From: a virus
Strand: one strand, 5' to 3'
IMG/VR virus record: IMGVR_UViG_3300034198_027423
Span: 1-29,409 of that record
DNA length: 29,409 nucleotides
The translations under genes and the position numbers were made by a program. The notes under the pieces are model-generated. The model ran no database searches. It worked only from the letters and a program-made list of their open reading frames with translations, and was not told the DNA's origin. Below, one piece after another: positions 3,175-16,979 of the stretch (position 1 is the first letter of the stretch; each line of letters begins with the position of its first letter).

Positions 3175-3182
3175 TATTTAGT
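3175..3182 (-). promoter_or_regulatory. Late promoter box (ACTAAATA) abutting gp20
   Basis: ACTAAATA, then ACATC, then ATG: a five-base spacing that predicts a leaderless gp20 mRNA. The TAA inside the box is also the stop codon of the upstream endonuclease gene (3178-3180), so the endonuclease ends exactly in the promoter and leaves it intact. Confidence 0.62.
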
Positions 3183-4905
3183 CTCGAAGATGCAATGCCC
3201 AAGTAGTTTGTCCACAGTCCCATATACGGTCAAAGCCTAATTCCTGCATGATATTCCACTCTGATTTACTGTTGTCGTGTCCTTGTTCTACTAATTTGTG
3301 TTTTTGAAAATTTAATCGATCAAATCGTTTTTTATAGTCAGTGTAGCAATAACCCACGTTAGTCTTTTGCTGAGTGAAACCTAATGTTTCATACACCTTA
3401 CCAGTGAAATACCTATTGTCGTTGTACGAAATGATATTTTTTGGAGAGTATTTGTCTACAAAAAATTTCAGTAATTTACTGGACCCACCCACAATGTTTT
3501 TGTTGGAGCAATACCTAACAATTTCATAGTCATACTTCTTATTGTACCTAGCTTTGTTGAAAGTCATTACTGAAATCAATTGGTCCTCGTGATAAAGACC
3601 TAATGAAATTTTAGCTGGCGAACTAGATTGGATATGATACTCATCAGTGAAGTATTTAGCAGTAGGGGAATCAATTTCTTTCACTATTGTTTTTCTAGCG
3701 TACACGTAAGTTTTAGACTTTTCTACACTCAGTTTAATTCTATTTTGAATCTTTTCTTTTTTATTTTGCCAGTCGTCTTCAAAGATAGTTAGCAGATTTA
3801 TCCCTAAATCAGCACACTTTTTATACTTAGTATGATGATAGTTTCTGTTTCGACCTGACGAATTTTCACTGTGCCAATATAGCCCACAACATTCTATTGC
3901 TAAGTTAGACATGGGAATGTAAAAATCAAGTTCCAAAGGTGCTATGACAGCCCTATTATTTTGAATAAAATCGACTTCTAGTGTAGTTAAAAAGTTGGCT
4001 ACTTCAATTTCAAATTGACTGGTAAGCGGGCGCTTGAATAAATGTCTAGCATCGTACTTTTTAGCATAGAGGTACAGAGTATGTTCGTGAATTTTTAATG
4101 TGTCCATTACCTGTTTACGTTCTTTGCCCTCGACGAATGCTCGAAAATCATGGGCTGATGCCAAAATTTTAATAGTGGATTCTGGTAAGGAAATTTTACT
4201 GGCAGCATCTACCCCATATTTTTCTATTAAGGTTTGTTTTCTGTTAGAGTTAACTTGAGCTATATCATTTTTTTCCCAAGAAGTTTTCATCTTGGCTAAT
4301 GACACGGGGTTTTGAAGTGGAAATTCAACGCCATACTTTAATAGATTGGTGTTTATTAATTTTTGCTGCTGAGCTTTCATGTTCATGTGATGTGGGACAT
4401 CATATTTCTTCAAATTTGTATTTCTTGCCCTTTCTTTTGTTTTTTCTTTTTGTTCAGGTGTTCTTGAATTTCGAGTGAGTCTGGATTTTTCCTTCACTAG
4501 AGCATTTTGACTATGGTGTGCTGTGCCATATTTTTGTAAATTGGTTTCTTTTATTTTTTGTTGGACTATTTCTAATTTTGCTGCGTTTGATACACCAAAT
4601 TTTCTAAGTAGAGTTATTTTTTGCTTTTCCGTCCGATTTTCACTTACATCTAAACAGGCATTGCCTAATACACACCCAATTCGATATCCCAATATAAAGG
4701 TATTGAATACCCGATAGTTACCACATTTACATTTGGGTGGTGCTCCATTAATGATAATGTATACTTGCTCCATGAAATTTTTTGTGGGGTAATCTCGTGT
4801 TTCTTCTTGAATTTTTTCAAAAAGCTGTGGTCGGGCAGCTTTAATCCACCTGGGTATACCCACTATTGGGCGCGATCCACAAATTTTTAATAGCTCTTCC
4901 CTCAT
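3178..4905 (-). CDS. Free-standing homing endonuclease, Vsr/EDxHD-like, with KYGV repeats
   Basis: 575 residues. Domains in order: a four-Cys zinc module (C-x-C near residue 60, C79, C85); four or five repeats built around K-[KF]-[YF]-G-V/T (residues ~100-235), likely DNA-binding; a Vsr-like PD-(D/E)xK nuclease core (~300-380) with E302, ELDFYIP (D328), IECCGLYWHSE (E339, H346), HH358-359 and FEDDW (~376-380); and a C-terminal domain (~395-560) with LGLYHEDQLISVMTF and VYETLGF. The nuclease layout resembles the EDxHD homing endonucleases. It is paralogous to the gene at 13464-15098. It lies between the tape measure and portal genes, where T4 has no such gene, so insertion by homing is inferred. 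It has its own late box 4 bases before the ATG; a TTG at 4908 is the alternative start. Confidence 0.8.
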   Translation of the reverse strand: MREELLKICGSRPIVGIPRWIKAARPQLFEKIQEETRDYPTKNFMEQVYIIINGAPPKCKCGNYRVFNTFILGYRIGCVLGNACLDVSENRTEKQKITLLRKFGVSNAAKLEIVQQKIKETNLQKYGTAHHSQNALVKEKSRLTRNSRTPEQKEKTKERARNTNLKKYDVPHHMNMKAQQQKLINTNLLKYGVEFPLQNPVSLAKMKTSWEKNDIAQVNSNRKQTLIEKYGVDAASKISLPESTIKILASAHDFRAFVEGKERKQVMDTLKIHEHTLYLYAKKYDARHLFKRPLTSQFEIEVANFLTTLEVDFIQNNRAVIAPLELDFYIPMSNLAIECCGLYWHSENSSGRNRNYHHTKYKKCADLGINLLTIFEDDWQNKKEKIQNRIKLSVEKSKTYVYARKTIVKEIDSPTAKYFTDEYHIQSSSPAKISLGLYHEDQLISVMTFNKARYNKKYDYEIVRYCSNKNIVGGSSKLLKFFVDKYSPKNIISYNDNRYFTGKVYETLGFTQQKTNVGYCYTDYKKRFDRLNFQKHKLVEQGHDNSKSEWNIMQELGFDRIWDCGQTTWALHLRD

Positions 4906-4909
4906 CAAC

Positions 4910-4939: not shown

Positions 4940-7504
4940 TTAACTTTGGACTCTTAATAATTTATCTTGAAGATCATTGCTGGTTGACAGTTTATCTACC
5001 ATTTCTGTTAACTTATATTCCATCATTGAGTATAATTCTTCCATAATACTTCTAAGAGCATCGCCATTCATTCCTGTCATAGCTGAAGTTATTTTATTGG
5101 CGGCGGCATCGCCCTCTATTTTAATTAAGCTAGTACTTGGGTTAGGTGTTGGTACAACTGTTTCTGCTCCATGAAGCATTACTGGGTATCCTGAGTTTGG
5201 CCCTGAAAAAGAACCCCCCAGACTAGCCCTAGGCAATGCTTCCATTAACTGTTGCCGGCTAATTAGAGATTTGTTCGATCCTACTTTATCATAATGGCTC
5301 TTACCTGTGCTAGTGGGCAATGCTGCCCACTCCTGTGCAAGATTATCCGCAAACTGGTCTGGAGTTATTTTTTTACTCATGTAAGCTGAGTACCCTCTTT
5401 TCTCTAATAGGGCGCGACCTAATTTTTCTTGGGTAGATTCGTTGAATAAATCATCAGGTCCCACTCCTGCGCGTTTCATTGTTGCCTCTAGAGTTTTTTT
5501 TATTATTTGATATTTACCTACAGCAGTAGATTCAAACCCCATTCCAGGCATTTTTTCTTGGAAGGCAAGTACATCTTTAACCGTCATTCCTGTTAGATTT
5601 TCCTTTTTCCCACCCACAAGAACATTATAATCTCCCCCACTTTCTTTACTAGCAATTAGATTTAATAATGCTGACTCCGAACCGTTAGATGCCATACGTT
5701 GTCCTGGTGCCTGTGATCCTTGTGAATTGCTACCAAATCCCAATATGTTACCCAAGCCGCCACTGTGTGGCGCACCAGTAATATAATCTTTTATATCGGC
5801 TGCTTTGCCTCCTAAAAACTCGCCGGCGCGGCCGGGCGCAGTCATCACATCTTTTATATTATTAAAATACCCTACCAGGGTTTTAAAACCGTTAATCATA
5901 TCATCAATTGTTTTCTTCCAGTCCACTTTACTTAATTTTTCTACAAAACCCGTCATTATTGTTGTAAATTGGTTAAATGTAGGTATAAATGACTGCAGTG
6001 ATTTTGAAAATCCATCTATACTTTCCCTAAATTTTTTCTCATTTTCTAGGGCCTTTTTTCTATTCTGTTCCGCTTCGTCATTCCCTAATCCTGCTTTTAC
6101 CTTTGCTTCAATTTCCTTTTTAGTTTCTTCAATTGACTTATCGTTTAATACAGCTAATTTAGCCAATCGTTCGCTGTTAAGTCCCATACCCTCACTATAT
6201 TCTTTGCTAAGCTGCAATGCAAGGCCCTGACTTTCTATCAGTTGCAGGTCCGCTTTAGCCAAGCCCTCTACGAATTTTACACCAACATCTTCACCTCTTT
6301 CGAATGCAGATCGCAATTCTTCTAATGTCATACCCGTATTACGCATGATTTTCATTGTTTCTGGGGTATACACGCCGGTTTTCAAAAAATGCTGTAATGA
6401 TTTGGCAGCATCCATACCCAGTGTGGCTGAAGTGAATTGGATGACCGATCTTTCTAAATCCAATTTCTTTTGTAATCTAGCTGCTTCTTGCCGATCAGCA
6501 GCATTGCCCTTTTCTAACTCTCTAATTTTATTAGTGGTCGCCAAATCAGCTATTTGTGATTCTCTTTCTTGCGCCAATTGCAATTGTTTTTGTTTTTGTT
6601 CTTGTACACTCTCACCCGATAATGCACTCAGTACTAATAAATTTTCAGTATATTCTTTTGCTGATCGTTGTAGATACCCGCTAGTTTTCATTTCTTCAGT
6701 AATCATTCTACCTGACATTGTTTGTAATCTAACAAAATCAGCAGTGTTTTCAACGAAATCATCGATTGTAACGCCCAACGATAACAATCTGCGTTGTTCT
6801 TCGTCAGTGATCTTAGTTAATTTTGTAAACTCTACTACACCTTGACTTACTGAACCTCCCAATCCCGCTAGGCCTACGCCAGCTTTGGTAACCATCTTAG
6901 TATACTTTTCTATTTCAAATGTAGAAAAGCCTGAGGCTTCTCCCATTTTTTGAATTTCAAGAGTAGTAAGTTGTCCCACAGCACCAAATTTAGCTAATTC
7001 GTCTTTAGCGATAAACAAATTATCTTGAAATGCAAATGCTTGTTCCACTAACATCGTCAATGGTTTTAATAATAATCCTACAACTTTACCCAAAGGTCCA
7101 AAAGCTGACAACCCAGTCGCTGCTGCACTTGCTGCTTGATTTAATGCAGCATTATATTTGGACATACCCTCACGGGTATCCAACATAGTTTTACCCAATG
7201 TAGCTAAAGCATCTTTACTTTCTTTAGTAGCTGTACCCAGTATTGATAATGATTTGCCTACTGTGTACGCAGCCTCTGCTGCCATCTTGTTTGCTGTGCT
7301 GACATTGGTTGCAGAAGTTGCAACTTCTTTATTGCGGGTACTTAATACTGACGCCGATGATGAAGCATTACCTAATGCTTTACTGAAATCTTTTTGATTG
7401 CTCATCGAAGATCCAGTGATACCCATAGAGGATTGCATAACTCCCGTTAGTTCACGGATGCTAGCATCTAATTCTCTAACCGTTTCTTCATTAAATTCAG
7501 CCAT
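4940..7504 (-). CDS. Tail tape measure protein with C-terminal muramidase/SLT-like domain
   Basis: 854 residues. The N-terminal 130 are Ala/Ser/Thr-rich and helical. A hydrophobic Gly-rich segment follows (~130-160, GLSAFGPLGKVVGLLLKPL), then long coiled coil with Gln/Lys/Glu runs (~290-500). Residues ~608-735 look like a lysozyme/transglycosylase: LLNLIASKESGGDYN places a likely catalytic Glu at 621, with the downstream motif AVGKYQII at ~661-668. Near the C-terminus SGYPVMLHGAETVVP (~771-785) is a motif common at the ends of phage tape measure proteins. The protein sets tail length and is expected to pass into the cell envelope on infection. T4 gp29 plays this role (590 residues). Here the gene sits beside the portal operon and is divergent from the gp26-like assembly gene. 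The leader is ~21 bases with no clear Shine-Dalgarno. Confidence 0.85.
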   Translation of the reverse strand: MAEFNEETVRELDASIRELTGVMQSSMGITGSSMSNQKDFSKALGNASSSASVLSTRNKEVATSATNVSTANKMAAEAAYTVGKSLSILGTATKESKDALATLGKTMLDTREGMSKYNAALNQAASAAATGLSAFGPLGKVVGLLLKPLTMLVEQAFAFQDNLFIAKDELAKFGAVGQLTTLEIQKMGEASGFSTFEIEKYTKMVTKAGVGLAGLGGSVSQGVVEFTKLTKITDEEQRRLLSLGVTIDDFVENTADFVRLQTMSGRMITEEMKTSGYLQRSAKEYTENLLVLSALSGESVQEQKQKQLQLAQERESQIADLATTNKIRELEKGNAADRQEAARLQKKLDLERSVIQFTSATLGMDAAKSLQHFLKTGVYTPETMKIMRNTGMTLEELRSAFERGEDVGVKFVEGLAKADLQLIESQGLALQLSKEYSEGMGLNSERLAKLAVLNDKSIEETKKEIEAKVKAGLGNDEAEQNRKKALENEKKFRESIDGFSKSLQSFIPTFNQFTTIMTGFVEKLSKVDWKKTIDDMINGFKTLVGYFNNIKDVMTAPGRAGEFLGGKAADIKDYITGAPHSGGLGNILGFGSNSQGSQAPGQRMASNGSESALLNLIASKESGGDYNVLVGGKKENLTGMTVKDVLAFQEKMPGMGFESTAVGKYQIIKKTLEATMKRAGVGPDDLFNESTQEKLGRALLEKRGYSAYMSKKITPDQFADNLAQEWAALPTSTGKSHYDKVGSNKSLISRQQLMEALPRASLGGSFSGPNSGYPVMLHGAETVVPTPNPSTSLIKIEGDAAANKITSAMTGMNGDALRSIMEELYSMMEYKLTEMVDKLSTSNDLQDKLLRVQS

Positions 7505-7575: not shown

Positions 7576-8406
7576 ATGTCAGATCCAAATAACCCACTAC
7601 GACAATATTTTAGAAGACCATCGATTTATCTAAAATTACCCAGCGGTGGCACTGGCTATGGACCCGATGTATTAGACTTACCAAAAAATGGTGAATTGCC
7701 TATATATCCCATGACTGCCATTGATGAAATCACTACGAAAACACCTGATGCATTATTCAACGGAGATGCTATATCAGAGCTAATTAAGAGTTGCGTACCT
7801 AATATTAAAAATCCGTATGAAATAACTAGTGTAGACTTTGATACCATATTAGTAGGTATTAAAACAGCGACTCAAGGCAACGACTATGAGATCCAATCGA
7901 AATGTACTAAATGTGAGGAAATCGCAACATACAATGTGAATTTAATTTCGTTATTGTCTGGTATGAATGCTGCTGATTATAGTGTTCTATTAGAGATAAA
8001 TGGACTAAAGATAAAATTTAGACCACTTAAGTACAAAGAAATGAATGCGGTAAATCTTAACCAATTTGAAGTTCAAAAAATCTTTAGTCAAATTGAAAAC
8101 GAAACAAATGATAAGATCAAAATTGAAAAAAGTCAAGAAGCATTGAAAATGATCACTGAGCTTACAATGAAAATATTAAGTACAACTATTGAGTACATTG
8201 AAACTGAGAGTGAATCCGTAACAGATTCGAATTACATATTAGAATACTTAAGAAATTGTGACAAAAAGACTTTTACATCCATAAGAGATTATAACGCAGA
8301 GCTAAAAAATTCCACCACGATAAAACCCTTAAAGGTTGTTTGCCCAGGATGTAGTAATAAGTATGACCAAGAGGTGGTGATAAACGCAACCGATTTTTTC
8401 GGTTAA
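7576..8406 (+). CDS. 26: gp26-like baseplate/tail assembly protein (T4 base plate protein family)
   Basis: 276 residues beginning MSDPNNPLRQYFRRPSIYLKLPSGG, the opening typical of T4 gp26-type base plate proteins in marine phages, followed by LPIYPMTAIDEI and ALFNGDAISELIKSCVPNI. Two Cys pairs, C110-x2-C113 and C256-x2-C259, could form a split zinc ribbon. The start is supported by AAGGA 5-6 bases before the ATG. The last codons are GAT TTT TTC GGT TAA, and the T_TTT_TTC heptamer would permit a -1 shift into the downstream frame. The gene is head-to-head with the tape measure gene, the place where long-tailed phages normally keep their frameshifted tail chaperones, so a chaperone role is plausible. 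The family name is fairly sure; the molecular role is inference. Confidence 0.78.
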   Translation: MSDPNNPLRQYFRRPSIYLKLPSGGTGYGPDVLDLPKNGELPIYPMTAIDEITTKTPDALFNGDAISELIKSCVPNIKNPYEITSVDFDTILVGIKTATQGNDYEIQSKCTKCEEIATYNVNLISLLSGMNAADYSVLLEINGLKIKFRPLKYKEMNAVNLNQFEVQKIFSQIENETNDKIKIEKSQEALKMITELTMKILSTTIEYIETESESVTDSNYILEYLRNCDKKTFTSIRDYNAELKNSTTIKPLKVVCPGCSNKYDQEVVINATDFFG

Positions 8407-8436: not shown

Positions 8437-8630
8437 CAAAGCTTATAAAAGATATGGAAACAGAATGCGTGGAGATCAAAAAACAAGCATTCAGTTTTTC
8501 ATGGTATATGAGAGGCGGAGCTTCTTATAATGACATCCTAAACATGTCCTGGCAGGAAAGGCAGCACATTAAAGAACTGATTGAATCGAATTTGGAAACG
8601 GCAAAAGCTACTAAGATGCCATTTTTCTAA
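8400..8630 (+). CDS. -1 frame extension of gp26-like gene (gp51-like small protein)
   Basis: The frame is open from within the gp26-like gene and has no ATG, GTG or TTG between the slip site and an ATG at 8454, which itself lacks a nearby ribosome site. The 76 downstream codons read RLRLLHLDHEGVAKLIKDM, then a part with FSWYMRGGASYNDILNM, ending in KMPFF. The even amino-acid composition and the MPFF ending look like a real conserved protein of marine T4-like phages, in the slot of the T4 hub assembly gene 51. I favour translation only as a frameshift fusion with the upstream gene. A separate 58-residue product from 8454 is the alternative. The exact homology to gp51 is not certain. Confidence 0.6.
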   Translation, partial: RLRLLHLDHEGVAKLIKDMETECVEIKKQAFSFSWYMRGGASYNDILNMSWQERQHIKELIESNLETAKATKMPFF

Positions 8631-8661
8631 TCACACATCAGTCTAAAAATCAGATGTAACT

Positions 8662-8687
8662 AATATGGGGAGAGTGCTCCCCATATT
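8662..8687. terminator. Strong hairpin, probable bidirectional terminator
   Basis: A perfect 11-bp stem, AATATGGGGAG with CTCCCCATATT, around a 4-base loop (AGTG). It lies 31 bases after the last plus-strand coding base and at the inferred 3' end of the minus-strand RNA. It lacks an immediate T-run on either side, so it may be a termination/stabilising structure rather than a classical intrinsic terminator. Confidence 0.5.
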
Positions 8688-8705
8688 CATGGCTATTAAG
8701 CCATG
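8688..8705. terminator. Second hairpin next to the first
   Basis: CATGGCT pairs perfectly with AGCCATG around ATTA, starting right after the preceding hairpin. Twin stems at a convergent junction fit a bidirectional stop or a protective 3' end for the structured RNA. Confidence 0.4.
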
Positions 8706-8709
8706 GAGT

Positions 8710-8717
8710 TATTTATG
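8710..8717 (-). promoter_or_regulatory. Orphan late box (CATAAATA) five bases before an ATG
   Basis: CATAAATA, ACTCC, then ATG GCT TAA on the minus strand. The spacing is identical to the abutting late promoters of real genes here, but the reading frame ends after two codons inside the twin hairpins. It may be a relic promoter of a lost gene or chance. Confidence 0.3.
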
Positions 8718-9186
8718 GGCTGGTAATATTAGAGTTTTGTTTACAATGGCCATGGATATTCATTAAACCAACAAATTTGTATATCCTATCTATCTTACTT
8801 ATTCTAAAGATTACTGTGATATCAAGATGATCTACCGATCATCTATACCTTAAATTTGCTATTGCGCTTTCGCGCACCAGAGCGCTTCACTGCGCTTGCG
8901 CTCTTATAGCAAATTTGGTATTCTTTTTAACTATAAAGAGCTAATCCAATTGTCTTTAACACTAAACCTAGCACTCCTGTGCTGCACGCCTCAGGGGCGT
9001 AATCATCATCCAGATTAGAGTCCATGGTAGTGCCGGAAAGCACTACCAGGGATTTACTTCCGGGTTATCCGGGACCGTCATCCTTCTGCTGTCTTTCCCA
9101 CAGTGATTAGCCATTTTTTCGCCATCGACCGCCACCGGTTGCTCGGTAAGGTATTACTGGGCCGTAGTTGATGCAGATTGAGAAGC

Positions 9187-9241
9187 CAAGTCACCTTGAC
9201 CAAAACCAAGTTCAACTTGGCCGACCAAGTTCAACTTGGTC
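9187..9241. repeat. Three serial CAAG/CTTG hairpins inside the structured RNA
   Basis: CAAG-TCAC-CTTG (9187-9198) is followed by two copies of CCAAGTTCAACTTGG (9206-9220 and 9225-9239). The second extends to a 19-base GACC...GGTC palindrome (9223-9241). Because the arms are identical they can pair within or between copies, allowing alternative folds or intermolecular (kissing) contacts. Confidence 0.6.
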
Positions 9242-9636
9242 ACTACTTATATAACAATCCATGAAAGGACAGGTTCATCCCTATTAAATCAATAGGTGCT
9301 ATATAGTATCGGGTTCTTCTATATAGCGGACTCCCGTCCACATCCGCAACGCACATCCTATAACATCAAGACAGGATAGTTATAGGCTTGTTCAGGGTTC
9401 GCAATCTATGTCGAGTGCCCTGTCGGTATTCGATGATTGTATTCAATCATCCTAACTCCAGATCCGCCGGCGACGAGCCTTACCTCGGCTGGCTCAAGGA
9501 GAGTCGAGGATCCCCGACCAAACAGCACTCACGAGGGCGTTAACCCCGCGTCCCATAAACAAATTCAGACTACCGTGTCCATGAATGTCTATTTGCATAA
9601 ACTCATTGGACCGCTAGGCAATTCATAGGCTTGTTA

Positions 9637-9665
9637 AATCTAACGCAACCCTTTGCTTATGTCAA
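9637..9665 (-). promoter_or_regulatory. Candidate sigma-70 promoter for the structured RNA
   Basis: A perfect -35 TTGACA (9660-9665), a 17-base spacer and a -10 TAGATT (4 of 6). The predicted start is near 9630, just after the resolvase stop codon and at the upstream edge of the folded region. Confidence 0.4.
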
Positions 9666-9727
9666 AACCAATATACTATCAACTCTTGGGTATGCCCAGG
9701 ATGATTAATCATATTGATCTTTGATAC

Positions 9728-10276
9728 TCACTGATCTGTTGATTCTTCCTCAGTGATATCGATTGTTGCAACGGAAGAATAAGTTTTTAGTAAGTCTTTG
9801 TTCAATTTAAAAAATTGTTCAAATTCAATAATAACCCAATCACCATATGATTTAGATGAATAATAAGTGAAATTATCAGTGATCCACGTCAAACTGCTTT
9901 GTACTGCTACAAACTTACCTTTCCTGTTAAACTTCATGACTAGAATATTTACGTCACTTGATTCAGCGACTTCCATCATTTGACCTAACCAATTATCTAA
10001 TACCTTACAATCTCCTGTGTACAGTAGATGGAAAGGAAAATTGGCATAACTTTTGGCCTCAGCATTGAATTTAATCCAAGAATCAGGTGGGACAATATCC
10101 CCCTTAAAGGATTTAATTTGCGCCTCACTTAGAAAATCTTTTCTTCGTGAATTAGATCCGCCCACATATGCTCCAGAACCTGGTGCGCGGACGAAACTGT
10201 CGTTATATAGCTTTGAGAGAAAAGTAGCGACTTCCCTTTCAAATGAGCTTCCTTTATTTTTAGATTTAGATGGCAT
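9728..10276 (-). CDS. PD-(D/E)xK nuclease, Hjc-like Holliday junction resolvase
   Basis: 182 residues from the second ATG (MPSKSKNKGSSFEREVATFL); a first ATG at 10282 is inside the promoter box. The N-terminus K-x-K-G-S-x-FERE is the signature of Hjc/archaeal-type resolvases (E13/E15). It is followed by GD60 and AEAKS (E73, K75), completing the PD-(D/E)xK metal site. Such enzymes cut four-way junctions during recombination and before packaging. T4 uses the unrelated endonuclease VII (gp49) for this, so this looks like a functional replacement. It follows gp46 after 36 bases but has its own late box whose predicted start is the A of the second ATG, fitting a late debranching role. A more general phage nuclease of this fold cannot be excluded. 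Confidence 0.72.
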   Translation of the reverse strand: MPSKSKNKGSSFEREVATFLSKLYNDSFVRAPGSGAYVGGSNSRRKDFLSEAQIKSFKGDIVPPDSWIKFNAEAKSYANFPFHLLYTGDCKVLDNWLGQMMEVAESSDVNILVMKFNRKGKFVAVQSSLTWITDNFTYYSSKSYGDWVIIEFEQFFKLNKDLLKTYSSVATIDITEEESTDQ

Positions 10277-10281
10277 GATCA

Positions 10282-10289
10282 TATTTATA
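10282..10289 (-). promoter_or_regulatory. Late promoter box, perfect TATAAATA, for the resolvase
   Basis: An exact match to the T4 late consensus, followed by TGATC and ATG at 10276. The five-base spacing predicts a leaderless mRNA and decides for the second of two in-frame ATGs, since the first overlaps the box. Confidence 0.72.
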
Positions 10290-13463: not shown

Positions 13464-15098
13464 TTATTTGCCCTGAGTGATGTTGGGTACTTTGCTCCAA
13501 ACAAATACATCATGTCCACAATCCCACAAACGGGTGTATCCATTGTTTAACATATTGGCTGCTTCGGATAGAGAACTATCAAAAATGGGCAGTGATTTTT
13601 TTAATTTGTGTTTCTGAAATTTCTGCCGGTTGAACACATCGGTATAGTTTTTTGTATATTTGTAGCCAGGTTTACTAGTACCCATATGAGTAAATCCCAA
13701 GATGGCATACATTTTCCCAGTTGAATGCATTTTGTCAGAAAAGGATACTATTGATTCGGGACTGTGATGCTCCAAGAAATTTTTGAATAATTTACTAGCT
13801 CCTCCTACTACAGTAGTATTTATTTTATTTGCGAACCGCAACAATTCCCATTGATACTTTGAAGTGAAGCGATTAGAGCCAAAAGACATGACAGAAACTA
13901 GTTCCCCAGCAAAATATAACCCCAGGTTCACTGCTGCTTGGTATGTTCTACCTTGTAAATGGTTATTTTTAAAAAATACGGCAGCATCTGGTTGACTGAT
14001 CTCTTTGATTTGGGTTTTTCTAGCTGGTATCTTCACCGAGACATGGTTCACTCGACTGGCAATCATAGACTTCATAATGTCATTTTTTTGATACCAATCA
14101 TGCTCCCAGATATGGACGAGAGTAATGTTGTTTTCCCTACACCTAGCTGTTTTGGATAAGTGATATTTGTTGCCTCTACCCAACAATTCAGTGTGCCAGT
14201 ATGTACCATTACACTCGAATGCTAGACTCAATTTGGGTAACAAAATGTCTAATTGTTTGTCTTTCAATATAGTCCAATCATTCGTCAAAACCTCATCCGG
14301 GTACAAAGATGAAATGAAGGCAGTGACTTCTACCTCAAATGAACTAGAGACCCTATGCGTTAGTTTGATACCAAGAAAGTTTACTTTGTCGTATATAGGT
14401 TTAACTGAGATATCATATTTTTTAGAAAGGTCAATCACTGAAAAACTATCTAATTCTGTTTTAAAAAACTCATCGTCCTCTAAGAAATGGATTGCCTCCG
14501 GTGAATAATTTTTTTGCGCTGGATTGCTCACACCATATTTTTCTAAGCATGTACCTTTAATCCGATCTGCGATTTCTTGTACCTTGGCGGGGTTATCTAC
14601 ACCATATCGTTCAGTACAAGTATTCTTCATTTTAACTTGTATTTGCGGTGATTGTGCGGGATAATCAACATTAAATTTTCGTTGATTACTCTTTTTTGTC
14701 CGTTCCTTGTGCTCAGGTGTTTTGCTATAATGCTCAGTGCCGTATTTCTTTAAACTGGTAGATCGCATTTTGGATAGCCAATCAGCACGTTGGCTATGCC
14801 ATTCTACGCCATATAACTCTTTATTTTTTTCTTTTTTGGCAGCAACTGAATAGGTTGCGGTACAGGCATTGCTACAATATACTCGATATCTTCTATGATC
14901 ATCAGACCAAGATAAAGTAGAGCCACATGGACATTTTGGAATAGAACCCAACCCACTAATAGCATGACTCAATATTTGTCTTGGTTTTGATATTCCCAGT
15001 GATAATTTAATTTGTTGAAAAACATCAGCCAACACCGAAGATTCTAAGTCTTTGGGAGTAAGTCGTTTTAGGTTAGCTAATCTTAATAGTTCACTCAT
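13464..15098 (-). CDS. Second free-standing homing endonuclease, Vsr/EDxHD-like
   Basis: 544 residues, paralogous along its whole length to the product of 3178-4905. A zinc module has CPC (C56, C58) plus C75 and C79. KYG-type repeats follow (~95-195: LYGVEWHSQ, KKYGTEHYS, RYGVDNPAK, KYGVSNPAQ), then the nuclease core with SSSFEVEV (E255, E257), LDILLP (D284), FECNGTYWHTE (E295, H302), H313 and WEHDW (E332, H333, D334). The C-terminal domain has ARKTQIKEIS, LGLYFAGELVSVMSFG, VVGGASKLF and MYAILGF. All candidate catalytic residues look intact. It begins 3 bases after the gp55 stop codon (TGA TTA ATG) and precedes gp47, so it sits inside the replication/late-regulator operon next to the intein-bearing gene. 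That position suggests it targets this locus. The family assignment is from motif layout only. Confidence 0.8.
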   Translation of the reverse strand: MSELLRLANLKRLTPKDLESSVLADVFQQIKLSLGISKPRQILSHAISGLGSIPKCPCGSTLSWSDDHRRYRVYCSNACTATYSVAAKKEKNKELYGVEWHSQRADWLSKMRSTSLKKYGTEHYSKTPEHKERTKKSNQRKFNVDYPAQSPQIQVKMKNTCTERYGVDNPAKVQEIADRIKGTCLEKYGVSNPAQKNYSPEAIHFLEDDEFFKTELDSFSVIDLSKKYDISVKPIYDKVNFLGIKLTHRVSSSFEVEVTAFISSLYPDEVLTNDWTILKDKQLDILLPKLSLAFECNGTYWHTELLGRGNKYHLSKTARCRENNITLVHIWEHDWYQKNDIMKSMIASRVNHVSVKIPARKTQIKEISQPDAAVFFKNNHLQGRTYQAAVNLGLYFAGELVSVMSFGSNRFTSKYQWELLRFANKINTTVVGGASKLFKNFLEHHSPESIVSFSDKMHSTGKMYAILGFTHMGTSKPGYKYTKNYTDVFNRQKFQKHKLKKSLPIFDSSLSEAANMLNNGYTRLWDCGHDVFVWSKVPNITQGK

Positions 15099-15101
15099 TA
15101 A

Positions 15102-16979
15102 TCACTCATCATATGTACCTGAACCCCCAGTACCTTGTCTAGACCACGAGGGAGCTAGGTTGTTCATTTCTAATATATCGTCACGAATGTTTTGATTTTT
15201 CTTTTCAGTATTTAGCACTCGACAAAAAGAATTAGTAATCGCCGCAGTGTAGTAGGCGAATGGATTAGCGCTCTTTGCCTCGTTAAAGCGTAACCCTACA
15301 TATGTAAGTTGAAGAATAGCGCTAGCCTTCATTTCGTCATTGTAGGTATTTCCTGTAAGGTAAATTTTACCATTTCGTTTCGCCATAAAACAACCAAATT
15401 CAGTTTCTGGGCACCAAACTTTTCCAACATATGGCTCAGTTGGTATGTTGGGGTGAGTAATTTTACCCAAGCCTGGATGGGATTTTCCAGAATTTTTACC
15501 GCCGTGAAGGTCAATGTATTCTCCGCGCGCGGTATTCCCTCGATCATGATATAAATTCACGTTATAATATTCGACTGACTTTCCATAATTTATACTATTT
15601 GTTACAGGCTCTGTGCTAGTCCTAATGCCAGACAAAGTACATAGAGCCTGAAACATTTCTATTCCAGATAGAGATTTCTCGGTATAACCGCGGCGCCCGC
15701 AACGTCGCCATCCGGCACCATCTATCATATTTTCTACCAGAAGAATCTTTTGCCCTTGTGACAGGGATAGAATAAATTCCATAGTCAGATTTTTATTAGG
15801 TATAAGTTTGGTAATATGTTGGCTGTCTGATTCCTCGATTCTGAAGGCGATGTTTTTATCTGCGACCTCAGTAAATTTTAGCTCCAGCCGCTGAAGGCAA
15901 TTTCTAATTCGGTCAGCCTTAACGCCAGGATTTTGGTATATGGTAATAGACTTAATCCCAGACTGATCCAGATCGTATTGCCCATTAGCGACAATCCATC
16001 CCACCAGTTCAACTAAATTATCTGAATAGATGGGCGATGGAGCATCAACGGAGTCTGCCATGATTATAACTTGGTCTGATTGCTTTAATAATTCAATTGG
16101 CACTAATCCGTTTTTAGTTACAATTTTGTGGCCTGGGGTGATCAGTGAATCAATTCCACGGGATGACAGCTTGAACATTTTACCAGAAAAGTCTCCTCGA
16201 TAAATTGATTTAACTGCGCTCCAGGCTAGATTAGTACCATTATAGCTTAATATAGTATGATTTGTGGTGATAGAATTAATATCGACCCAGCCAGTATCAG
16301 TCAATGCTTGAGTTTCGGCATCGACACAATACCCACGCCAATTATATTTCATGGCATATTTTTCACATAGCATCATGTACATTTTTGCTAGTTTATTAGT
16401 TATATTGCCATGGTCTTTTGAAAACTCGCCCGTCTCTAAATCGCCCAACCAATGTGACTTGCCAATACAATAGAAAGTATTATTATCATCAATTTTAAAA
16501 TGTTGGAATGGTGGGAAGTTGACTTTGACATGCACCATATCGTCTATTTCATCTCTAGTTGAAACATCTTCTAAATCTGAAAAGGCTTCGTCAGTATCAT
16601 TATCAAACTCAAAAATATCTTTCGCTGTTTTCTTTTTGGTAACTTTTCTTGGTTGTTTGGGTGCTACGGGAATATGATCCCATGTCATTATTCTGAATAC
16701 TAAATCAGTGACCGGAATATCATCTGCTGTTAGTTTTTGGTTGGTCTCTTGATTAATCCTGTTGGCCCTATTTTCTCTTGCTTCTAATAAAGTTTCAGAT
16801 TTCCCCGCATATTGAAGCCCCTTTTCAACTGGTTCTTGGGGCAAGTCCACGATAAAGTCATACCTATGCGAGGTAGAATCCACATATGAGCAATAAGTAT
16901 TTTTACTTTCGTGAATTTCTTTGAGTATATCTTTGTTATTCAAATAATTTTTTGGTTTACTTGGGGCTAATAATGACAT
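15102..16979 (-). CDS. 55: Late-transcription sigma factor gp55, interrupted by an intein
   Basis: 625 residues as translated. The N-extein starts KPKNYLNNKDILKEIHESK, matching T4 gp55 KYNYVNNKELLQAI. Just before the intein NKLAKMYMMLCEKYAMKYNWRGY matches the T4 segment ending in RFNFSGY. After the intein TYNDEMKASAILQL and NPFAYYTAAITNSFCRVLNTE match the conserved sigma region. The exteins add to 298 residues (217 + 81), against 185 in T4; an acidic and Lys-rich insertion (~50-190) accounts for the difference. gp55 directs host RNA polymerase, with sliding-clamp help, to TATAAATA-type late promoters. Start: AGGAAA 9 bases before the ATG at 16979. Upstream lie a perfect sigma-70 promoter and a late box, so expression should be early and then self-sustained. 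Activity requires protein splicing. Confidence 0.9.
   Translation of the reverse strand: MSLLAPSKPKNYLNNKDILKEIHESKNTYCSYVDSTSHRYDFIVDLPQEPVEKGLQYAGKSETLLEARENRANRINQETNQKLTADDIPVTDLVFRIMTWDHIPVAPKQPRKVTKKKTAKDIFEFDNDTDEAFSDLEDVSTRDEIDDMVHVKVNFPPFQHFKIDDNNTFYCIGKSHWLGDLETGEFSKDHGNITNKLAKMYMMLCEKYAMKYNWRGYCVDAETQALTDTGWVDINSITTNHTILSYNGTNLAWSAVKSIYRGDFSGKMFKLSSRGIDSLITPGHKIVTKNGLVPIELLKQSDQVIIMADSVDAPSPIYSDNLVELVGWIVANGQYDLDQSGIKSITIYQNPGVKADRIRNCLQRLELKFTEVADKNIAFRIEESDSQHITKLIPNKNLTMEFILSLSQGQKILLVENMIDGAGWRRCGRRGYTEKSLSGIEMFQALCTLSGIRTSTEPVTNSINYGKSVEYYNVNLYHDRGNTARGEYIDLHGGKNSGKSHPGLGKITHPNIPTEPYVGKVWCPETEFGCFMAKRNGKIYLTGNTYNDEMKASAILQLTYVGLRFNEAKSANPFAYYTAAITNSFCRVLNTEKKNQNIRDDILEMNNLAPSWSRQGTGGSGTYDE
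15348..16328 (-). mobile_element. Intein with degenerate LAGLIDADG endonuclease, inserted in gp55
   Basis: 327 residues, C218 to N544 of the gp55 reading frame. Block A: CVDAETQALTDTGW. Block B: LITPGHKIV (T281, H284). Block C: LVELVGWIVANGQ (~323-334). Block E: LVENMIDGAGWRR (~414-426). Block F: VWCPETEFGCFMAKRNG. Block G: KIYLTGN, followed by Thr as the +1 residue. The penultimate residue is Gly, not His, as in several phage inteins. The splicing residues look complete. In the endonuclease, the acid expected in ADG (block C) is Asn (ANG) and that in GDG (block E) is Ala (GAG), so cleavage is probably lost. Insertion is in the most conserved helix of gp55, between GY and TY, a typical intein choice. 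Confidence 0.9.

Follow-up and report, generated by a model that had tools for sequence, protein, structure and literature searches.

The DNA analysed here, hereafter the window, is a virus fragment of 29.4 kb (29,409 nucleotides) from IMG/VR with T4-like gene content. Its genes include a gp26-like baseplate protein, SbcC/SbcD-type gp46/gp47, and portal-like and tail proteins. A gene-poor stretch of ~1.1 kb (8631-9727) is bounded by the end of a plus-strand ORF at 8630 and the end of a minus-strand nuclease gene at 9728 (Table 1). We found no convincing gene in this stretch, which bore out the initial annotation, made from the letters of the window alone, in its description of about 1 kb without coding capacity. 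Further, no tRNA was predicted in the window. The stretch folded more stably than its shuffled versions: z was -3.6 for the core at 9006-9533, -5.7 for 8662-9005 and -2.7 for 9534-9727. The initial annotation had read the whole stretch as one RNA of about 1 kb; its observation was confirmed in part, in that a conserved RNA is real and comprises a core of ~350-530 nt plus flanking hairpins, but not the whole stretch.

Elsewhere in the window, a gp55-like late sigma factor carries an intein-like insertion of 327 residues (15348-16328, minus strand; start CVDAETQALTDTG, end IYLTGN before T), and its orthologue in the related locus L003 is uninterrupted. Two related large DUF7487 ORFs are present on the minus strand (3178-4908 and 13464-15098), one of them with a weak REase_MTES_1575 match, and both probably encode homing endonucleases. 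In L003 the gp47-gp55 interval, the site of the second ORF, is nearly closed.

The first IMG/VR relatives were found via the nuclease protein and share blocks of the gene-free region with the window. In two divergent relatives found in this way (71% and 65% protein identity), the gap was shorter (508-658 nt). Two independent DNA patterns taken from the shared blocks retrieved 31 and at least 119 viral contigs, with contigs of up to 524 kb; the pattern matches L008, L024, L027, L037, L049, L076, L151 and L053 were false and were removed. A pattern scan of genome contigs gave at least 118 exact matches, many of them in GC-rich hosts; 27 were scored with model R1, none better than E 0.09, and we regard these matches as chance. 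Neither the region nor a consensus found a convincing blastn match among cultured phages, and E. coli genomes gave no match.

The RNA was found at the same genomic place in more than 120 IMG/VR loci, in the order gp47-gp46-PDDEXK nuclease, RNA, two hairpins and the convergent p58/gp26 baseplate genes. In 127 loci the nuclease gene immediately preceded the RNA on the same strand, and convergent p58 and gp26 were downstream in 125 and 122 loci, respectively. We detected gp46 in 110 and gp47 in 78 RNA loci, counts that are often limited by contig ends. Each of 13 large contigs contained one RNA copy per genome. So as not to select for the RNA, we also collected 80 loci, 79 of them new, by alignment of the gp26 protein. 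Of the new loci, 75 were matched by model R1; the other four were short, and their DNA ends before the site. The RNA was therefore present in 75/75 gp26-fetched loci with enough flanking sequence, and this complete retention suggests strong selection on the RNA at one gene locus.

In one locus (L094), the RNA is retained though a SegE-type GIY-YIG nuclease gene (L094:6718-7161, Pfam 9e-36) replaces that of the PDDEXK nuclease. Four loci (L015, L098, L125 and L135) have single-ORF insertions between the RNA and p58, on the p58 strand. Those of L015 and L098 are homologues of each other that resemble homing-type endonucleases and have no Pfam match; the ORFs in L125 and L135 are unrelated.

We aligned 53 diverse sequences and obtained a consensus structure using RNAalifold. 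Covariation was decisive: at least one compensatory double change was found in 33 of the 55 consensus pairs, the kind of covariation among homologues that the initial annotation had named as a check. In a core of 146 positions (51 sequences), 18/30 pairs were double-changed; this core contained 222 double-changed cells compared with 63±9 after shuffling, and its covariation score was 0.394 compared with 0.155 for shuffled sequences and no more than 0.093 with the strands slid. These numbers, like the shuffle comparisons for the pseudoknots below (Table 1), are not probabilities because the shuffles ignore relatedness. Sliding removed most of the signal, and several positions showed three or four pair types. 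Further, a model-free covariation scan of 97 distinct sequences (effective number, ~53) placed the same helices on top, plus two pseudoknots, PK1 and PK2. Both pseudoknots are fully paired in the window, where C-G pairs replace U-A pairs of the consensus. The core also has long invariant unpaired stretches, and its loops are conserved.

At paired positions, G-U outnumbered A-C by 105 to 12 (58 to 7 when P9 was left out). This excess fixes the minus strand of the window as the RNA strand, as the initial annotation had it, in a test with a mild bias, the structure itself having been predicted on that strand. The P2 CUCC/GGAG helix was almost invariant and resembles an anti-Shine-Dalgarno/Shine-Dalgarno pair; that the ribosome might be the target of the RNA is a guess only.

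Table 1. Features of the gene-poor stretch and its flanks in the window (relatives are the IMG/VR loci with the same RNA)
Feature	Position	Strand	Basis
gp26-like baseplate gene	7576..8406	+	Pfam T4_baseplate 5e-13; synteny
p58, 58-aa ORF, convergent, downstream of RNA	8454..8630	+	synteny
Perfect 11-bp hairpin between convergent transcripts, possible terminator	8662..8687		fold
Three-way-junction hairpin, GAAA loop	8846..8922	-	sits where relatives have paired terminator-like hairpins; presumably equivalent
Conserved RNA core, P1 to P10 and two pseudoknots	9026..9519 (alignment row 9006-9533)	-	53-sequence alignment; window R1 78 bits, E 7e-20
P10 hairpin GGUAGUGC/GCACUACC	9026..9047	-	8 outer pairs formed in nearly all rows
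PK2, P6 loop; consensus UUGUC with GACAA	9370..9374 (5' strand) + 9089..9093 (3' strand)	-	97% paired; 79 double-changed cells vs shuffle mean 25, max 36
PK1, consensus UCCC with GGGA	9158..9161 (5' strand) + 9097..9100 (3' strand)	-	95% paired; 29 double-changed cells vs shuffle mean 6.4, max 13
P9 stem-loop	9102..9130	-	consensus structure
Closing helix UACCG/CGGUG (9424-9428 / 9133-9137) around P5, P6, P7	9133..9428	-	alignment, covariation
P7 helix GUUGC/GCAAC (9346-9350 / 9138-9142)	9138..9350	-	alignment, covariation
P8 region, ~165 nt longer in the window than in nearly all relatives	9165..9345	-	length comparison
P6 stem-loop	9353..9391	-	10/11 pairs double-changed
P5 stem-loop	9393..9422	-	outer helix 4/5 pairs double-changed, e.g. 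AU 25 / GC 25
P4 hairpin	9432..9453	-	length variable, pairs covary in relatives
P2, CUCC 9498-9501 / GGAG 9456-9459, encloses hairpin P3	9456..9501	-	paired in 53/53 rows, 3/4 pairs invariant
P1 hairpin GGUCGGGGAUCCUCGAC	9503..9519	-	stem covaries in relatives
Probable P0 hairpin GAC-ACGGUA-GUC	9568..9579	-	counterpart of relatives' upstream GAC-ACCAA-GUC; window copy deviates in loop
PDDEXK_15 nuclease gene, directly upstream of RNA	9728..10282	-	Pfam 3e-26; upstream in 127 loci

At most tens of bases separate the nuclease stop codon from the start of the RNA in the relatives. Of 127 loci, 98 carry the sequence GACACCNNGTC, which forms the GAC-ACCAA-GUC hairpin (P0), at a distance of -129 to -210 from the ACCGA box; elsewhere, 2.38 Mb contained 2 matches. 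Variants of P0 keep the pairing (GUC-ACCAA-GAC and GAG-ACCAA-CUC). In most loci P0 overlaps the 3' end of the nuclease gene, and L094 has two copies (near 7200) in non-coding DNA. P0 may be a protein-binding or processing site. The initial annotation had also named a plausible sigma-70 promoter at 9637-9665. The sequence TTGACA-17-TAGATT exists there, but sites of this kind are at chance level (2 in the region compared with 4.3 in shuffles), and in the relatives there is no room for such a promoter because so little DNA separates the upstream gene's stop codon from the start of the RNA.

Downstream of P10, the relatives have two terminator-like hairpins with a GAACGAAGUGA-like apex. Hairpins with this apex recur at 3' ends in relatives (e.g. 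L013, L041 and L055) and also in L318 and L157, and may be a terminator or processing element that giant phages share. The sequence of the window hairpins at 8662-8922 is not conserved in the relatives. The initial annotation had described a three-way junction and GNRA loops; a three-way-junction hairpin, larger than the relatives' hairpins, is indeed present at 8846-8922, with a GAAA loop in GCGC-GAAA-GCGC.

The window member of the family is an outlier. We excised 124 full-length copies of the RNA; nearly all were 348-390 nt long, compared with 528 nt in the window, in which the extra length is due to ~165 nt inserted into the P8 hairpin, which bring tandem hairpins such as ACCAAGUUGAACUUGGU. 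Further, the window RNA is ~200 nt away from the nuclease gene, compared with tens of bases in the relatives, and its 5' end is therefore uncertain.

When the window and 17 relatives were searched with Rfam 15 (4227 families), there was no match at the gathering threshold, and a permissive search returned only implausible chance matches, mostly to eukaryotic snoRNA and miRNA models. The initial annotation had suggested a GOLLD- or ROOL-class RNA, to be checked against Rfam; no such match was obtained at E<=10 in the region or at E<=1 in the 17 relatives. The accession that it gave for GOLLD, RF01998, is that of group-II-D1D4-1, and GOLLD is RF02032. A genuine GOLLD was detected in the sister-phage contig G006 (the contig of L073) at 227205-227668 (locus L359; 203 bits), inside a tRNA island with 10 tRNA predictions around it. 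The copy of the window-type RNA in G006 is at 293679-293834, 66 kb from this GOLLD, and no tRNA was predicted at the window-type RNA of the same phage (L182/L073). A further genuine GOLLD, of 187 bits, was found in Phosso (PV764938, 33533-34001; locus L357); both of these phages are giant and T4-like. Since the GOLLD model works in the clade and the two RNAs coexist, GOLLD and the window-type RNA are different things.

GOLLD, which forms an RNA-only nanocage, resembles the window-type RNA in that it is a large, pseudoknotted phage RNA of unknown function from the same phage clade. However, there is no sequence or structure match between them, and the window-type RNA keeps to the gp46/gp26 locus. 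ROOL (RF03087) is likewise a large, ornate phage RNA; its model gave no match in the window region, the relatives or 13 records, these 13 giving no positive control signal. GOLLD and ROOL are often located in or near tRNA islands (PMC12286853), whereas the locus of the window-type RNA, unlike the frequent setting of ROOL, has no tRNA island. Among open-access papers, we found no description of the window-type RNA. Thus, covariation, pseudoknots, strand bias and full retention in relatives support the initial interpretation of a structured minus-strand non-coding RNA, possibly of a new class, but its assignment to GOLLD or ROOL was not supported. Judged by Rfam 15 and open-access papers, the RNA is new as an RNA family only; the broad type, large phage RNA, is known, and we claim no new mechanism.

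The closest cultured proteins were those of PA5oct, Phosso, Atu_ph07 and Rak2-like phages. Model R1 gave no match on CBB, PA5oct, Phosso, Atu_ph07 or XaC1, and a match in a 93-nt gap of Vibrio phage 2.275.O (E 0.064) was rejected as chance. Unannotated gaps of ~790 nt occupy the corresponding place in CBB and XaC1 and are conserved in 61 phage records. The RNA of ~500 nt seen in Rak2-like giant phages (L155:5346-6131 in CBB, L157, L159-L165 and L190-L193), here called CBB-type, is not in Rfam. CBB, Munch, slurp01, XaC1 and BF have 4-5 paralogues of it per genome; the CBB copies lie in intergenic gaps of 660-790 nt, and most of them are preceded by a -35/-10-like pair (TGAAACG...TATAAT). Several annotators placed small ORFs on this RNA. 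The CBB-type RNA is apparently undescribed, and the words "noncoding", "non-coding" and "intergenic" are absent from the CBB genome paper (PMC5259590). Like the window-type RNA, it is conserved and intergenic and occupies the same syntenic place. However, the two models do not cross-match, the only shared motif is CGUUGC...ACAGrGCAACC, and the CBB-type is present in 4-5 copies whereas the window-type is single-copy.

Gene-poor, structured-looking gaps were also found at the same syntenic place in PA5oct (L154:4168-5680, ~1 kb), Phosso (L153:4760-5773, ~1 kb) and L318 (4014-4450, 0.4 kb), none with similarity to the window-type or CBB-type RNA. The gap in PA5oct is preceded by a promoter-like sequence, TTGACA...TATAAT, and the small ORFs annotated in it look doubtful. 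Atu_ph07 has no gene-poor gap of ~1 kb at this place, the gaps in L317 and L328 were rejected as RNA sites since they are coding, and the Phosso resolvase as the query found no IMG/VR relatives. It is possible, although we are doubtful, that several giant T4-like lineages devote the gp46-gp26 locus to a large RNA, either as one family that diverged beyond recognition or by repeated replacement.

Comparison of the relatives at the level of their sequences establishes a conserved fold with two pseudoknots, the sense strand, a fixed position and presence in all checkable relatives. We consider it probable that a large non-coding RNA of a new, pseudoknotted class is encoded on the minus strand, kept by a clade of large T4-like phages and active as a scaffold in trans. 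The RNA would be transcribed as the 3' part of a gp47-gp46-nuclease transcript and then cut or released in the vicinity of P0 upstream, and its end would be set by the terminal hairpins opposite the convergent baseplate genes. It would then serve as a stable scaffold in trans, in an RNA-protein particle or in an RNA-only assembly. Its core would be rigid, with the peripheral hairpins P4 and P8 able to grow, as happened to P8 in the window. The strong alteration of this P8 and the distance of the window RNA from the nuclease gene count against the reading.

The main rival to this trans-acting scaffold, which we favour, is a cis-acting 3' UTR that would stabilise and terminate the gp46-nuclease transcript and block antisense read-in from the late baseplate genes. 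The constant position between convergent genes fits this role, as do the terminal hairpins and the start of the RNA near the nuclease stop codon in relatives, and we give it a minor but appreciable chance. However, a core of ~350 nt in which two pseudoknots are combined with long, invariant, unpaired stretches far exceeds the needs of a terminator, and the RNA survives replacement of the upstream gene in L094. The same locus bears on the possibility that the RNA serves the adjacent PDDEXK nuclease as a guide or scaffold, much like the IscB omega RNA or the TnpB reRNA, which are likewise structured RNAs beside a nuclease gene. The nuclease gene is adjacent and on the same strand in 127 loci, with P0 overlapping its 3' end, but the nuclease is probably not the partner of the RNA because L094 keeps the RNA with the unrelated SegE-type gene. 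Further, the PDDEXK relatives of PA5oct and Phosso are inverted and without the window-type RNA, no guide segment was seen in the alignments, and the family is filed as phage PDDEXK endonuclease, with relatives annotated as Holliday junction resolvases. In contrast to the omega RNA and reRNA systems, the nuclease at this locus is unrelated to theirs and replaceable, and the RNA does not strictly co-occur with one nuclease; we regard a guide role as improbable.

The position between the replication/recombination and baseplate operons would also suit a DNA-level element, that is, a replication origin or recombination site with repeats that mimic RNA stems. Such an element is hardly credible, as the large excess of G-U over A-C at paired positions is not expected of DNA hairpins, and the loops are conserved and the pseudoknots covary. 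An unrecognised self-splicing intron or ribozyme remnant would account for the complex fold and for the homing-type nucleases that are nearby and, in some loci, inserted; we consider it very unlikely, given that the RNA was inside a gene in no locus examined, has no group I or group II match in Rfam, and is a single copy at a strictly conserved position. A highly diverged GOLLD or ROOL would likewise be a large phage RNA with pseudoknots and of unknown function (PMC12286853). This identity is already contradicted by the absence of an Rfam match in the window region and relatives, by the GOLLD model reaching 203 bits elsewhere in a sister genome in which both RNAs coexist, and by the lack of a tRNA island at the locus, and there is little chance that it is correct.

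Large structured RNAs without known function are rare. GOLLD and ROOL are often near tRNA islands, and the window-type RNA is instead fixed at one gene locus. Probing or cryo-EM could start from the consensus structure and its two pseudoknots. Further, the CBB-type RNA is present in cultured giant phages of enterobacteria, which makes the question testable at the bench. If several giant T4-like lineages do devote the gp46-gp26 locus to a large RNA, this would point to a core RNA-based function of giant phages that nobody has described.
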